Shown here piece after piece: positions 13,673 through 21,970 of a stretch of 24,484 bases of DNA. Under the pieces are notes generated by a model. It was given only the letters and a program-made list of their open reading frames with translations, made no database searches and was not told where the DNA came from. A program made the translations under genes and the position numbers. Source of the DNA: a virus. The stretch is taken from positions 1 through 24,484 of IMG/VR virus record IMGVR_UViG_3300032282_004864; one strand, written 5' to 3'. Each line of letters begins with the position of its first letter. The stretch's first letter is position 1.

Positions 13673-14332
13673 ATGGGCAAAGGGCTGATGGCGCTGATGG
13701 ATGGGGCAGAAAAACACTGGCAGCTGGTGAGTGCCCTTGGGGGCATTCTCCTGGCCACCCTGCGGTGGACCTGGCCGAACGTGATACTGCCAGGGTATCG
13801 GCTGACGCTGCTGCCGGTGCTGTCGTGGCTGAAGGGCATGGCCCGGCTGCCTGGGCAGGTGGCCAGCCTGGCCACGCTGGCGCTGACCACGGCGGACACC
13901 GTGAACCGGATGAACGACGTGATGAGCAACGGCGGGCGGACGGGTATGGCGGACCAGGTGGTGATGTTGACGGCCAAAGTGCGCCTGGCAAGCCGAAATG
14001 AGGCGGGATGGTTGGCGGATTCCAGCGGGCACAATGTGCGGGTGGATCCAGGGTTTACGGATCTGCTGGGCTGGACTGAATCCGACATGGTGGGGGACGG
14101 GTGGCTGCGGCTGCTGCACCCTGATGACGCCCATGCCTACCTGGACGCCTGGAACCAAAGCCTGGCGCACCAGCTGCCGTTCGTGTTCCCGCACCCCAGA
14201 AACGGCGGCGCGGTGCGATTCATGCAGGCATCTGGCGAATTTCTGCCGGTGAAGGTAACGGCATTCCCGACGATCAAAGAAGTGGGCGGGGTGATCAAAT
14301 GGGTGGGCGTCGTGGAACGGGTGACAGAGTGA
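13673..14332 (+). CDS. membrane-anchored PAS-domain protein
   Basis: This 219-residue protein starts at ATG 13673; ATG 13688 with AAAGGG upstream is an alternative. Residues about 17-55 are hydrophobic (LVSALGGILLATLRW, ILPGYRLTLLPVLSWL), probably one or two membrane segments, followed by a helical linker (60-105). Residues about 110-219 read as a PAS fold: VDPGFTDLLGWTESDMVG, then WLRLLHPDD (144-152), AYLDAW, a PFVFPHPRNGG hairpin, and the closing VGGVIKWVGVVERVTE. PAS domains bind small ligands or cofactors and sense redox, oxygen or metabolites. No kinase, GGDEF or HTH output is attached. The next gene, a cell wall hydrolase, begins inside its stop (GTGA), so a role in lysis timing is plausible but inferred. 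Confidence 0.7.
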   Translation: MGKGLMALMDGAEKHWQLVSALGGILLATLRWTWPNVILPGYRLTLLPVLSWLKGMARLPGQVASLATLALTTADTVNRMNDVMSNGGRTGMADQVVMLTAKVRLASRNEAGWLADSSGHNVRVDPGFTDLLGWTESDMVGDGWLRLLHPDDAHAYLDAWNQSLAHQLPFVFPHPRNGGAVRFMQASGEFLPVKVTAFPTIKEVGGVIKWVGVVERVTE

Positions 14333-14805
14333 CAGACGACGAAATCAAAGGCGGCCTGAATGATCGCCTGGCCCTGGGCCTGACGGCCTGGGCAGAAGCC
14401 AGGGGTGACGCGGCGCAGGGCGGCAGCAGCGTGGAAGAACGCCTGGCCGTGATGGCCGTCTGTCGGAACCGGGCGGCCGATACGCTGCACCGGTGGCCGA
14501 AGACGGTGGCGGGCGTTTGCCTGCAGCCGGTGCAGTTTTCCTGCTGGAATACTGGCGCGGACGTGAACCACCTGGCGCTGATGGCCCAGGCCCAGGCCGT
14601 GCTGGCCGGGATGATCGTGGCCGACAGACTGCTGCAGGAAACGCTTTACCTGGCGGATGGTGTCCTGGCGGGCATCATCGCGGATCGAACGGGCGGCGCA
14701 AACCACTATTACGCGCCGAAGGCCATGGGGGGCAAAGTGCCAGCCTGGGCGAAGGGACGGCAGCCGGTGGCTGCAGTCGGGGATCAGCTGTTCTTCAGGC
14801 TGTGA
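14329..14805 (+). CDS. cell wall hydrolase, SleB-like endolysin
   Basis: This 158-residue enzyme starts at GTG 14329, overlapping the upstream stop by GTGA; an in-frame ATG at 14299 would intrude further into the PAS gene. It has the Hydrolase_2/SleB pattern: LTAWAEARGD with the likely catalytic Glu23, AVMAVCRNRAAD, TVAGVCLQPVQFSCWN and GGANHYYAPKAM followed by PAWAKG. Family members cut peptidoglycan, described as lytic transglycosylases in spore germination and acting as phage lysins. There is no signal peptide, so export needs the holin-type membrane protein encoded next. Full family length is present. Confidence 0.85.
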   Translation: MTDDEIKGGLNDRLALGLTAWAEARGDAAQGGSSVEERLAVMAVCRNRAADTLHRWPKTVAGVCLQPVQFSCWNTGADVNHLALMAQAQAVLAGMIVADRLLQETLYLADGVLAGIIADRTGGANHYYAPKAMGGKVPAWAKGRQPVAAVGDQLFFRL

Positions 14806-14819
14806 AAGGGAAACCGGAC

Positions 14820-15548
14820 ATGACGGGAAACACGAAATACTGGGTGGGTTTGCTGGCGTCGATCTTCGCGGCGCTGTCGGCGGATACAACGCTGTTTCCG
14901 CCATCATGGCATTCCTGGCTGACGCTGCTGGGCGTCCTGGGGACGGCCATCAACGGTTACATGATCCAGCGGCCTGGGCCGAACGATAAGGCGCTGATGA
15001 TCGCCCTGGTGATCGGTGGCGGTCTGCTGCTGTCGTCCGGCTGCGGGCCAAAGATTGCGAACGCCCAGGTGGGCCAGGTGGCGCAGGCCGTGACGTATGC
15101 GCGGCAGGCCATCGCTGGCGCGGATGCGGCGCTGACGACGGTGGACCAGCTGATGAGCGCCACCCCGCCATTGATCCCAAAACAGGAAGGCCTGGCCGTG
15201 GTGCAGGTGATCGGCAGCATGGGCCGGGAACTGCAGCGGGCGGCGAAGGCGCTGGAATTGTGGAAGGCGGCCACCAACCAGGTGGACCGTGCGAATGCCT
15301 GGGCTGTGGCGCAGGCGTCGATCCAGGCGGCGCAGCAGGCCGTGCTGCAGGCCGTGGTGCCGATCAATGACGCGGCGGCGCGGGCCAAGGTGATCACCGT
15401 GCTGCAGGGCGTCCAGGCGGCGCTGGGCGCGATACGTTTGGGCGCGGCCATCGCGGGCATTACCGGCGGGGACGATCCGGCGGAAGACCTGGCGGCGCTG
15501 GGCGGGCGGATGGATCGGCTGGCCATTTCCTGGGGGGGTGCACTGTGA
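14820..15548 (+). CDS. holin-like membrane segments fused to lipoprotein-type sequence
   Basis: From ATG 14820 (AAGGGAAA upstream) the protein is 242 residues. Residues 7-22 (YWVGLLASIFAALSAD) and 30-48 (WHSWLTLLGVLGTAINGYM) resemble two holin segments. Residues 59-75 (LMIALVIGGGLLLSSGC) form a type II signal-like segment ending in a lipobox Cys75. Internal in-frame starts exist: ATG 14961 gives a product with Arg and Lys ahead of the hydrophobic core, and ATG 14997 starts right at it. The remaining residues are Ala/Gln-rich helices (AVTYARQAIAGADAALTTVD, QASIQAAQQAVLQAV). A holin plus an outer-membrane lipoprotein (o-spanin-like) from one frame is the simplest reading; full-length-only translation is the alternative. 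Confidence 0.6.
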   Translation: MTGNTKYWVGLLASIFAALSADTTLFPPSWHSWLTLLGVLGTAINGYMIQRPGPNDKALMIALVIGGGLLLSSGCGPKIANAQVGQVAQAVTYARQAIAGADAALTTVDQLMSATPPLIPKQEGLAVVQVIGSMGRELQRAAKALELWKAATNQVDRANAWAVAQASIQAAQQAVLQAVVPINDAAARAKVITVLQGVQAALGAIRLGAAIAGITGGDDPAEDLAALGGRMDRLAISWGGAL

Positions 15549-18729: not shown

Positions 18730-18745
18730 CCGGTAAATGGACCGG
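18730..18745 (+). other. leader stem-loop after promoter 2
   Basis: CCGGT (18730-18734) pairs with ACCGG (18741-18745) around the loop AAATGG. It lies in the untranslated leader, 22 bases after the -10 box. It parallels the leader stem-loops of promoters 1 and 3, though the stem bases differ. Confidence 0.35.
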
Positions 18746-18781
18746 ACGCAGCCGGGGGAAACACGAAGGACGGATAGGACA

Positions 18782-19876
18782 ATGAAGGCAGGAAAAACAC
18801 TTCAGCAGATGGCGCAGGAACTGGAACGCCAGGTGGCCACCCGTAAGGATTACGTGGCCGACCAGGGCGCGGTCCAGGTGGACGTGATCGACGGGGAACT
18901 GATGCTGGCGGGCGTGAACGGCGGCCCGAAGGCGATTACGGCCCACGCCCATCTGCAGATGGCGGATCACCTGGTGATCCCGACCCGCTACTACCAGCGG
19001 ATGATGGCCGAACAGCCGAAGCTGCTGGCGGACAACGTGAACACCTGGCTGCACCAGGACGGCGGCAACAAACGCATGATCAGAACGCTGGACGGCAAGG
19101 TGCGGGCGTTTCTCTCACCGAAGTATCGCCCGCTGGATAACTTTGAACTGGCGAACGCGGTGCTGCCCACGCTGATCGAACACGGCGTGGAAATCGCCAG
19201 CTGCGAACTGACCGAAACCCGCATGTATATCAAGGGCATCCTGCCGGAACTTTCGGAAGAACTGCCGGAAGGCATGACCTGGGGCCAGGGCCATCAGATG
19301 GTGGGCCGGGACGGCCGCCTGGTGGCGGCGCTGACGATCAGCAACAGCGAAGTGGGCGCGGGCAGCCTGCGGGTGGAACCTGGCGTATTTACGACCTGGT
19401 GCACGAACCTGGCCGTGATGAAGCAGGCGGCCATGAAGAAATACCATGTGGGCCGGTCCAGCACGGCGGACGATGCCATGGAAATCTTCCGGGACGAAAC
19501 ACGCCAGGCGGATGATCGGGCGTTCTTCCTGAAGGTGCAGGACGTGGTGGGCGCGGCATTCAGCCGGGACCAGTTCCTGCTGGCCATCGCGCAGATCCGG
19601 GACGCAGCAAAGGATCCCATTCGTTCGGACGATCTGCCGAAGGTGGTGGAAATCACCGTGAAGGAACTGGCGCTGCCTTCGACCACGCAGAACAGCATCC
19701 TGAAGGCACTGGCCAGCGGCGGGGATCTGTCACGCTGGGGCCTGTCGTCAGCGATCACGCAGGTGGCCAATACGTTCCCGGATTACGAAGGGGCGACTGC
19801 CCTGGAACGTGCGGGCGGCGAAGTGCTGGCGCTGAATGGCAGAGGCTGGGACCAGATCAGCAATGCCGCAGCCTAG
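18782..19876 (+). CDS. DUF932 phage/plasmid-like protein
   Basis: This 364-residue protein starts at ATG 18782 (GGATAGGACA upstream, shared with the promoter 1 gene); the earlier ATG 18737 is inside the leader stem-loop. Features of DUF932 seen: NGGPKAITAHAHLQMADHLV, NVNTWLHQD, GKVRAFLSPKYRPLDNFELA, YIKGILPEL, and GVFTTWCTNLAVM with following helices. The family is common on plasmids and phages, sometimes near anti-restriction or recombination genes, but its biochemical activity is not established. No signal or membrane segment is present. It is the first gene of promoter 2, suggesting early strong expression, and is followed by a strong RNA hairpin. Confidence 0.85.
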   Translation: MKAGKTLQQMAQELERQVATRKDYVADQGAVQVDVIDGELMLAGVNGGPKAITAHAHLQMADHLVIPTRYYQRMMAEQPKLLADNVNTWLHQDGGNKRMIRTLDGKVRAFLSPKYRPLDNFELANAVLPTLIEHGVEIASCELTETRMYIKGILPELSEELPEGMTWGQGHQMVGRDGRLVAALTISNSEVGAGSLRVEPGVFTTWCTNLAVMKQAAMKKYHVGRSSTADDAMEIFRDETRQADDRAFFLKVQDVVGAAFSRDQFLLAIAQIRDAAKDPIRSDDLPKVVEITVKELALPSTTQNSILKALASGGDLSRWGLSSAITQVANTFPDYEGATALERAGGEVLALNGRGWDQISNAAA

Positions 19877-19964: not shown

Positions 19965-20216
19965 GTGTTCAAACGGGTGGCTATCATCGGGCGCGGGCGG
20001 CGGATCTTCTACAGGATCCTGGTGGTGCGGTTCCTGGACGGGAAGCAGCCAGCGCAGGCGGAAGTGCCGATAGGGAAGTGGTCAAAGTGCAGGGCCATCA
20101 CGGGCAGCCAGGCGCAGTTCTGGCTACAGGTAGACGGGCTAGTGCGGATCGGGATGGAAGCAGACGAAGCCAGGCGTTCGGTCCTGGCATGGGCGGCAGG
20201 ATCGGGGGACAAATGA
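19965..20216 (+). CDS. small basic protein of unknown function
   Basis: This is an 83-residue protein from GTG 19965. GGGGGA at 19958-19963 is too close to this codon, while GTG 19977 is slightly far, so the start is uncertain. The sequence is basic and beta-rich at the N-terminus (IIGRGRRIFYRILVVRFLDG), then AITGSQAQFWLQVDGLVRIG and a helix with MEADEARRSVLAWAAG. The AAA+ ATPase gene starts within its stop (ATGA at 20213), so it may be a partner or adaptor of that ATPase. No family is recognised. Confidence 0.55.
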   Translation: MFKRVAIIGRGRRIFYRILVVRFLDGKQPAQAEVPIGKWSKCRAITGSQAQFWLQVDGLVRIGMEADEARRSVLAWAAGSGDK

Positions 20217-21970
20217 AGACACGACTGGCGAAGGAATTGGTGGAAGGCACGGGCGGCATCACGGCCTGGAAGAAGTTCCTGGCGGCGGATCGGTTCGACT
20301 ACAAAGAACGGATCGACGTGAACCTGGCCGGGCTGACGAACGCCCAGCTGGACGCGATGCTGGCCCTAGTGGAGAAGGTAGCGAAGGCGAAGGACCGGCT
20401 GGGCCGGATGGCGAAATCCCTGCAGGTGGACGTGGCGAACTGGAAGCAGGCGCTGCTGTCACCGGAGAACGTGAAGGCGCGGGGCCTAAAGCAGTTTGAA
20501 GGCCTACTGCAGCAGTTCCTGCTGAAGCAGGCACCGGGCCAGCGGCTGTATAAGCGATCCGAAGGCGCGGCCGAAGGGGTGGACGCCTGGGAAGGATATT
20601 ACGTGTCCCAGGTGAAATACTGCGAACCAGATGGGCGCAACAATCGGGACAGTCCGCCCTGGGTGTCGATGTCGCTGGTGTTCGATGAATTGGGCCAGCT
20701 GTCGAAGACCGGCGAAACATTCCGGGACCAGGACGTGCGCGGGCGAACGGCGGCGGAAGTGCTGCTGATGCGCGGGTTCTGCGTCGAAACGGATGAACTG
20801 CTGGCGGCATATGAGCGGGACCGGGCGCGGTTTGTGAAGCTGCGGGACCAGATCGGGCTGCAGCTGTGGGCGGACGGCCAGGGGTTCGTGGCCAGGGTGG
20901 ACGGGAACGGCGAAAAACCCAGCAGCCAGCGGTCTGATCACAGCAGCCGGAATGAATGGCAATACGAATACCGACCGTTCCCGATGGCCCACGACGATGG
21001 CGGGCTGTCGAAGGTGGTGGTGGACGTGTTCCGGGAAGAAGACCGTGAACGCGAAACCGAAAAGGCACCGGATCCCTATTACTGGCGCAACGTGGCCGAT
21101 GGAGTGCTGACCGGTGACGAAACCGACGAAGACGCCCAGGCGCTGGTGAACGAAGACGGGGAAGTGCTGGGGCCGGTGGACGTGCCGGTTCACCCCACCA
21201 TGATCGTGTTCGATCTTCGGCGGCATCTGCGGATGTCGCTGCACGTTCGGCAGCTGGCGGATTACGAATTCGACCTACAGCTGGCGGATCGCCTGGTGCT
21301 GTCACCGGAACGGAAGCAGCTGGTGCGGATGCTGGTGGAAAGTAAGGCGGGCAGTTTCCGGGACATCGTGCGGGGGAAGACCGGCGGCGCTGTGATCCTG
21401 CTGGCCGGGCCACCTGGAACGGGGAAGACGCTGACGGCTGAAGTGTTCGCTGAGTCTGAAGGGCGGGCGCTGTATTCGGTCCAGTGCAGCCAGCTGGGGA
21501 TTTCACCGGAAGACCTGGAAGGGAACCTACTGAAGGCATTCAGCCGGGCGCGGCGCTGGAATGCCGTGATGCTGCTGGACGAGGCGGACGTATACGTGCG
21601 GCAGCGGTCTAATGATCTGATACAGAACGCCATCGTGGGCGTGTTCCTGCGGATGCTGGAATACCAGGATACGGTGCTGTTCCTGCTGACAAACCGGGCG
21701 GACGACGTGGACGACGCAGTGGCCAGCAGGTGCATGGCCAAGCTGACCTACAAAACGCCCAGCCTGGACGAACAGGTGCGGATCTGGCAGGTGCTGACAG
21801 TAGGCCAGGGCATGAGCCTGGACGATGCGGAAGTGCAGCAGATCGCGGACCAGAACCCCACGCTGTCGGGCCGTGACGTGAAGAACCTGCTGAAGCTGGC
21901 GGCGCTGGATCGTTCGGTGCCTTTGTCGGCTGATCGGGTGAAGTTCCTGCTGCAGTTCAAGCCAGCATAA
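20213..21970 (+). CDS. AAA+ ATPase with long N-terminal domain
   Basis: This 585-residue protein starts at ATG 20213, coupled by ATGA to the upstream gene. The N-terminal 300 residues are unrecognised and charged. Residues about 320-345 (VPVHPTMIVFDLRRHLRMSL) lead into the ATPase core: Walker A GPPGTGKT (399-406), Walker B MLLDEAD with D456 and E457, sensor 1 LLTNR with N494, and Arg506 in ASRC, followed by PSLDEQVRIWQVL and the lid helix SGRDVKNLLKLAA. All catalytic residues are kept. The stretch ALYSVQCSQLGISPEDLEGN and WNAVMLLDEADVYVRQR recalls an AAA group known from bacteria and fungi. A protein-remodelling or DNA-transaction role is inferred. Promoter 3 begins at its stop. Confidence 0.85.
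   Translation: MKTRLAKELVEGTGGITAWKKFLAADRFDYKERIDVNLAGLTNAQLDAMLALVEKVAKAKDRLGRMAKSLQVDVANWKQALLSPENVKARGLKQFEGLLQQFLLKQAPGQRLYKRSEGAAEGVDAWEGYYVSQVKYCEPDGRNNRDSPPWVSMSLVFDELGQLSKTGETFRDQDVRGRTAAEVLLMRGFCVETDELLAAYERDRARFVKLRDQIGLQLWADGQGFVARVDGNGEKPSSQRSDHSSRNEWQYEYRPFPMAHDDGGLSKVVVDVFREEDRERETEKAPDPYYWRNVADGVLTGDETDEDAQALVNEDGEVLGPVDVPVHPTMIVFDLRRHLRMSLHVRQLADYEFDLQLADRLVLSPERKQLVRMLVESKAGSFRDIVRGKTGGAVILLAGPPGTGKTLTAEVFAESEGRALYSVQCSQLGISPEDLEGNLLKAFSRARRWNAVMLLDEADVYVRQRSNDLIQNAIVGVFLRMLEYQDTVLFLLTNRADDVDDAVASRCMAKLTYKTPSLDEQVRIWQVLTVGQGMSLDDAEVQQIADQNPTLSGRDVKNLLKLAALDRSVPLSADRVKFLLQFKPA

Follow-up and report, generated by a model that had tools for sequence, protein, structure and literature searches.

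The locus and its lysis genes

The window, by which we mean the whole stretch of DNA that was analyzed, is an IMG/VR virus record of 24,484 bases; none of 50,697 phage records matched it at the nucleotide level. An open reading frame (ORF) on the plus strand at 13673-14332 of this phage record was read as encoding 219 aa, directly 5' of the gene for a cell-wall endolysin. The features of this region are as follows:

13673..14332, plus strand: holin-like membrane protein with a C-terminal PAS domain, 219 aa (ORF, PAS_3 match, homology to the proteins of L004 and L005)
13679..13843, plus strand: long N-terminal helix, residues 3-57, presumed membrane anchor (AlphaFold; moderate hydropathy)
13925..13960, plus strand: SNGGRTGMADQV, a degenerate copy of the PNGG-SS-[LMI]-[RK]-D motif (aligned with PNGGSSMRD motifs)
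14003..14326, plus strand: PAS domain, residues 111-218 (Pfam 122-214, AlphaFold, PDB matches)
14329..14332, plus strand: GTGA, in which the start of the endolysin gene overlaps the stop of the PAS gene (sequence)
14329..14805, plus strand: endolysin, Cell Wall Hydrolase_2, PF07486 (Pfam E=7.6e-14; PHROG endolysin 1e-10)
14820..15548, plus strand: 242-aa ORF with a holin-like start of two transmembrane (TM) segments, then an in-frame lipobox-like LLLSSGC and an Ala-rich lipoprotein-like part (sequence reading)

The sequence-only reading had claimed that the first gene is coupled by GTGA to a cell wall hydrolase and lies upstream of a holin-like ORF, and both claims agree with what we found. 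The overlap is present, the endolysin is PF07486, and the next ORF, at 14820, begins with two TM segments. The endolysin could instead start at ATG 14299, which is in frame and preceded by a G-rich stretch; the overlap would then be 34 nt. The ORF at 14820-15548 had no significant family match in Pfam or PHROG. It holds a two-TM part and a lipoprotein-like part in one frame, with an internal start near 14997, and is possibly a dual-start lysis gene. Farther along the window, 18737-19876 encodes a protein matching phrog_1362 (unknown function), and 20078-21970 encodes an AAA+ ATPase matching phrog_29662, labeled "ATP-dependent protease."

The C-terminal half is a PAS domain

Residues 122-214 of the window protein matched PF08447 (PAS_3) in Pfam with an E value of 7.5e-12 and 45.8 bits, compared to a gathering cutoff of 25.6. 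An AlphaFold model, for which the input was 17 real viral sequences, gave a pLDDT of about 96 for the PAS domain, with values of mostly about 92-97 for residues 111-218 and one block at 81, and showed the strand and helix order of a PAS domain. Comparison of this PAS model to PDB structures returned 617 matches at E<=0.001; among the matches listed (50), all were PAS/LOV-type. The features expected of the fold, a five-stranded sheet with flanking helices, are present in the AlphaFold elements and in the PDB matches. Taken together, the C-terminal half of the protein is a genuine PAS domain. Structure prediction plus a profile search, suggested in the earlier reading as a check on the PAS pattern noticed there, confirmed the fold.

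The protein ends at its PAS domain. We found no kinase, cyclase, or other catalytic output domain and no second Pfam match in the 219 aa, and a PAS sensor kinase or transmitter was ruled out because nothing of this kind follows the PAS domain. We also looked for the cysteine that forms the flavin adduct in LOV domains. Cysteine is absent from the entire window protein, and a LOV photoreceptor was therefore rejected.

The PAS architecture recurs in other phages

The same layout, an N-terminal TM segment followed by a coil and a PAS domain, was found in 16 further viral proteins from about a dozen uncultured-phage lineages. These relatives were collected with an alignment-based scan, a second scan with real sequences, and the DNA motif G-[HNDY]-G-W-x4-H-P-D-D. 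The query alignment of the first scan included three synthetic PAS consensus rows; our conclusions rest on the later real-sequence alignments. Single-protein scans of viral contigs with the PAS protein, the endolysin, and the tape measure protein gave no close relatives, and tblastn with the window protein and four relatives against the 50,697 phage records gave nothing useful. A PAS match in the record of "Pseudomonas phage Y10" (OQ572411.1, 21636-29872) was discarded since the neighboring genes are bacterial. That stretch carries PtsP-like, diguanylate cyclase, and Lgt-like genes and looks like host contamination.

The relatives are about 180-235 aa long and have a C-terminal PAS domain without an output domain. 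Most carry P-N-[GH]-G-x-S-[ILM]-[KR]-D (PNGG/PNHG-S-S-[LMI]-[RK]-D) between the coil and the PAS domain, which sits after the coil as an addition and does not replace it. Divergent lineages share the PAS core, including G-x-GW. In two lineages (G1 and G2), whole-gene dN/dS was about 0.1-0.2, indicating purifying selection. The separate halves gave about 0.05-0.22, from which we conclude that both halves are maintained; in G1 the PAS domain is under the tighter constraint of the two, which is not the case in G2.

The N-terminal module of the relatives belongs to a widespread phage family

Using PNGG[ST][ST][LMI]RD as a search pattern, we obtained at least 120 viral matches versus 7 in 84,980 bacterial and archaeal genomes (257 Gb), a strong viral bias. 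No PAS domain was present among the 7 matches to this R-form motif, and a bacterial prophage origin was rejected on these grounds. When translated, the motif matches were mostly proteins of 65-110 aa in which one TM segment and basic residues accompany the motif and a coiled coil; PAS fusions accounted for six. The stand-alone proteins fall in phrog_9869, a family of unknown function in PHROGs. A phrog_9869 match was also obtained in 7 of the 9 PAS relatives scanned (E<=8e-4), and a profile of the stand-alone proteins matched the N-terminal half of 14 of the 17 PAS proteins with E values of 1.3e-10 to 5e-18. The fusion protein from L125 is 42% identical to the stand-alone protein from L159 over 71 aa (E=4e-18). 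From these sequence comparisons, the N-terminal halves of the relatives belong to phrog_9869, a large unannotated family of predicted phage membrane proteins.

We then have two measures of how often the stand-alone genes lie beside endolysins. An M15-type or CHAP endolysin-like ORF lay within 1 kb in 51 of 101 stand-alone contigs versus 13 expected at random positions; it was always downstream of the PNGG gene, and the distance was 60 nt or less in 26. With redundancy removed, the linkage was weaker (12/43). The CHAP representatives were confirmed by Pfam and PHROGs, while the M15 call is based on an SxHxxGxAxD...HxH motif, with no Pfam match reported. A frequent order among the stand-alone loci was one-TM PNGG protein, endolysin, two-TM protein, and the window has the same order. 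Across loci L054 to L173 (e.g., L059 and L057), PNGGSSxRD marks a very large phage membrane-protein family that is enriched directly upstream of endolysins.

Since the relatives' N-terminal half also occurs alone beside endolysins, the membrane module is the probable output of the PAS proteins. The statement that the window protein has no kinase or other output domain stands as far as Pfam goes, but homology of the relatives to phrog_9869 suggests that the output lies at the other end of the protein.

Is the window protein itself part of this family? Its residues 19-217 align with the L004 protein (E=7e-13), so that homology extends beyond the PAS domain, and it also aligns with the L005 protein (E=1e-16). 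Against a profile of the PAS relatives, the score of the window N terminus was reached by 1 of 5,000 full shuffles and by 34 of 5,000 shuffles of the C half. Against the stand-alone PNGG profile, the match was not significant (E=0.28). We therefore describe the window N terminus as a probable divergent member of a phrog_9869-like family, weakly recognizable as such.

The earlier description of the protein as membrane anchored holds more clearly for the relatives than for the window protein. Hydrophobic stretches occur in its N-terminal helix at residues 17-33 and 37-53, but hydropathy is moderate, with a best 19-residue value of 1.17; the TM segment is clearer in the relatives. A positive-inside charge pattern of the N-out/C-in type was present in 16 of 17 PAS proteins and 108 of 111 stand-alone proteins. 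For the relatives, this charge distribution predicts an N-out/C-in protein with its PAS domain in the cytoplasm. The window protein is the sole exception among the 17, and the charge pattern there is not decisive.

Several PAS genes occupy lysis positions

In L004, the PAS gene lies directly before a GH24 lysozyme gene (PF00959), followed by Rz/Rz1-like genes, of which the Rz match is weak. In L125, an Rz-like spanin (phrog_1152, 2e-15) is encoded two genes upstream of the PAS gene. In the same contig, an HNH-endonuclease-like ORF (L125:5454-6360) lies between the spanin and PAS genes and overlaps the end of the former. The G2 contigs are T7-type and Autographiviridae-like (TerS, PF11123; TerL, PF22530), and in them the PAS gene is the sole gene between the tail fiber and TerS genes. 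The same slot encoded small TM proteins in all ten isolated or fosmid-derived Autographiviridae inspected, and the slot protein of LUZ100 is annotated as a T7 gp17.5-like holin.

Other copies lie elsewhere. Going by names read from translations, the G1 copies adjoin nrdA/nrdB-like genes, those of L062 and L113 adjoin replication genes, and that of L005 adjoins the portal gene, implying that the family is not exclusively lytic in position. Endolysins of PF08291 and PF01510 were sought in the PAS records, and none was near a PAS gene. The placement of the PAS protein in a lysis region therefore recurs in unrelated phages (L004, G2, and L125) but is not shared by several PAS lineages.

A possible role in gating lysis

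We put at about even the chances that the window protein is a PAS-fused, holin-like membrane protein of the lysis cassette with a gating role. The PAS fold, the layout common to several phage lineages, and the lysis position in some of these are observed; topology, holin-like activity, sensing, and gating are inferred. It would be a PAS-fused member of a one-TM, N-out/C-in, coiled-coil family of lysis-cassette proteins, LysF1b-like in layout. The N-terminal helix would sit in the inner membrane and leave the coil and PAS domain on the cytoplasmic side. There, the PAS domain might respond to a ligand, cofactor, or partner by setting how the membrane module oligomerizes, and a change in oligomeric state could bring forward or put off permeabilization of the membrane and, with it, the release of the co-expressed endolysin (14329). 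Its holin partner is probably the two-TM protein encoded downstream (14820).

A simpler role for the PAS domain would be structural: it could drive dimerization or clustering of the holin-like protein without sensing anything. PAS domains commonly dimerize, and the C terminus of the PNGG family is otherwise a short coiled coil that a PAS domain could strengthen. However, the domain was added after the coil and did not take its place, and its core, with G-x-GW, has persisted in divergent lineages; of the two halves of the protein, the PAS domain is the more constrained one in G1, although G2 does not show this. We consider a purely structural PAS domain unlikely. We are similarly disinclined to believe that the protein is a membrane-anchored modulator with no part in lysis, pairing with or titrating host PAS proteins or sensing the host state in some other way. 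Its place beside endolysin genes would then reflect insertion hotspots in late operons. The copies beside nrdA/nrdB, replication, and portal genes fit such a modulator, and the two-TM ORF downstream could be the sole holin. It would leave aside the recurrence of the PAS gene at the T7 holin slot and directly 5' of two endolysins that are unrelated to each other, as well as the homology of the relatives' N termini to stand-alone proteins concentrated before endolysins.

If the protein does act in lysis, it might act as an inhibitor, functionally like T4 RI/T, with a signal reported by the PAS domain delaying lysis via the downstream two-TM holin. The candidate holin at 14820 is in the same cassette, and in F1 mycobacteriophages a one-TM protein and a two-TM protein are paired and depend on each other in their roles (PMC13056207). 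An antiholin nevertheless seems very unlikely to us: in G2, the PAS gene is alone between the tail fiber and TerS genes, which is the place of the holin, and LysF1b, the one-TM protein of the F1 phages, itself acts as a holin and not as an antiholin (PMC13056207).

Returning to a gating role in a holin-like protein, the relatives show that attaching a PAS domain to a widespread holin-like module is a recurrent viral design. We found no relevant report of a holin or other lysis protein with a PAS domain in the open-access literature, where absence is not proof. The clock that times holins is described as intrinsic, and outside signals reach it mainly via separate antiholins such as T4 RI. A built-in sensor may decide when some phages burst the cell. 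We suggest only tentatively that many uncultured phages time lysis by a PAS sensor built into a one-TM holin-like module, reading a small molecule, redox state, or a partner in the cytoplasm and gating permeabilization of the membrane directly. If true, such recurrent PAS-holin fusions would let host physiology set lysis time directly, and the very large unannotated family phrog_9869 would gain a function.

Comparison with known systems

Small proteins named "PAS domain" from uncultured phages are already in BFVD, where they are unexplained. Two of these from uncultured Caudovirales, A0A6J5NY05 (205 aa) and A0A6J5QVN9 (195 aa), aligned over nearly their full length in Foldseek; "PAS domain" is their only name, and the hit list gives no function or link to lysis. 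The PAS relatives share the TM segment, basic stretch, coil, and PNGGSSxRD of their N-terminal half with the phrog_9869 stand-alone proteins, which differ in being 65-110 aa long and lacking a PAS domain. The window N terminus is weakly recognizable in this comparison.

In layout, we found a likeness to LysF1b of the F1 mycobacteriophages (PF10874, DUF2746; Girr, NormanBulbieJr, and Che8 gp35). LysF1b has one N-terminal TMD with a predicted N-out/C-in topology; its deletion impairs lysis, energy poisons trigger it, and its action as a holin is experimentally supported (PMC13056207). That study describes it as a new class of holin and notes a similarity to PF10874 by HHpred (PMC13056207). Like LysF1b, the relatives described here are predicted to have a single N-terminal TMD, an N-out/C-in topology, and a charged cytoplasmic part; the window protein departs from this in its charge pattern and its weak TM character. 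LysF1b also shares its lysis cassette with a two-TMD protein. The window has these cassette features (PAS gene, 13673; PF07486, 14329; two-TM ORF, 14820, by sequence reading). LysF1b lacks a PAS domain, and its cassettes have the endolysin genes first and are found in phages of mycobacterial hosts. The Che8 gp35 motif N-T-H-D-T-N-M-R-D-D-L resembles that of the PNGG family (NTHDTNMRDDLDEI versus PNGGSSMRDAVDRI). PF10874 matched none of 23 records, while the control, Che8 gp35, matched at 5.8e-13, and membership in the DUF2746/LysF1b family was rejected. Since the profile similarity of Che8 gp35 to the PNGG family was 6 bits, we regard the likeness as analogy or remote homology, not membership. 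Che8 gp35 (L181:9205-9576) falls in phrog_404, labeled "minor tail protein," a label that may mislead since phrog_404 contains this LysF1b-type lysis protein.

The window protein is about the same size as the class III holin T of T4 (about 218 aa), which likewise has one TM segment near the N terminus and a globular C-terminal regulatory domain. T4 T is N-in/C-out, and its periplasmic domain binds RI, whereas the PAS domain here is predicted to be cytoplasmic and the charge distribution of the relatives is opposite to N-in/C-out. Membership with T4 T was rejected on the topology of the relatives. A Proteus phage holin gave a weak structural match (E=0.055). Lastly, the G2 relatives occupy the tail fiber-TerS slot of the T7 gp17.5 holin, a likeness of position. 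Holins of the gp17.5 type are about 70 aa and have no PAS domain, unlike the G2 relatives, which carry one.
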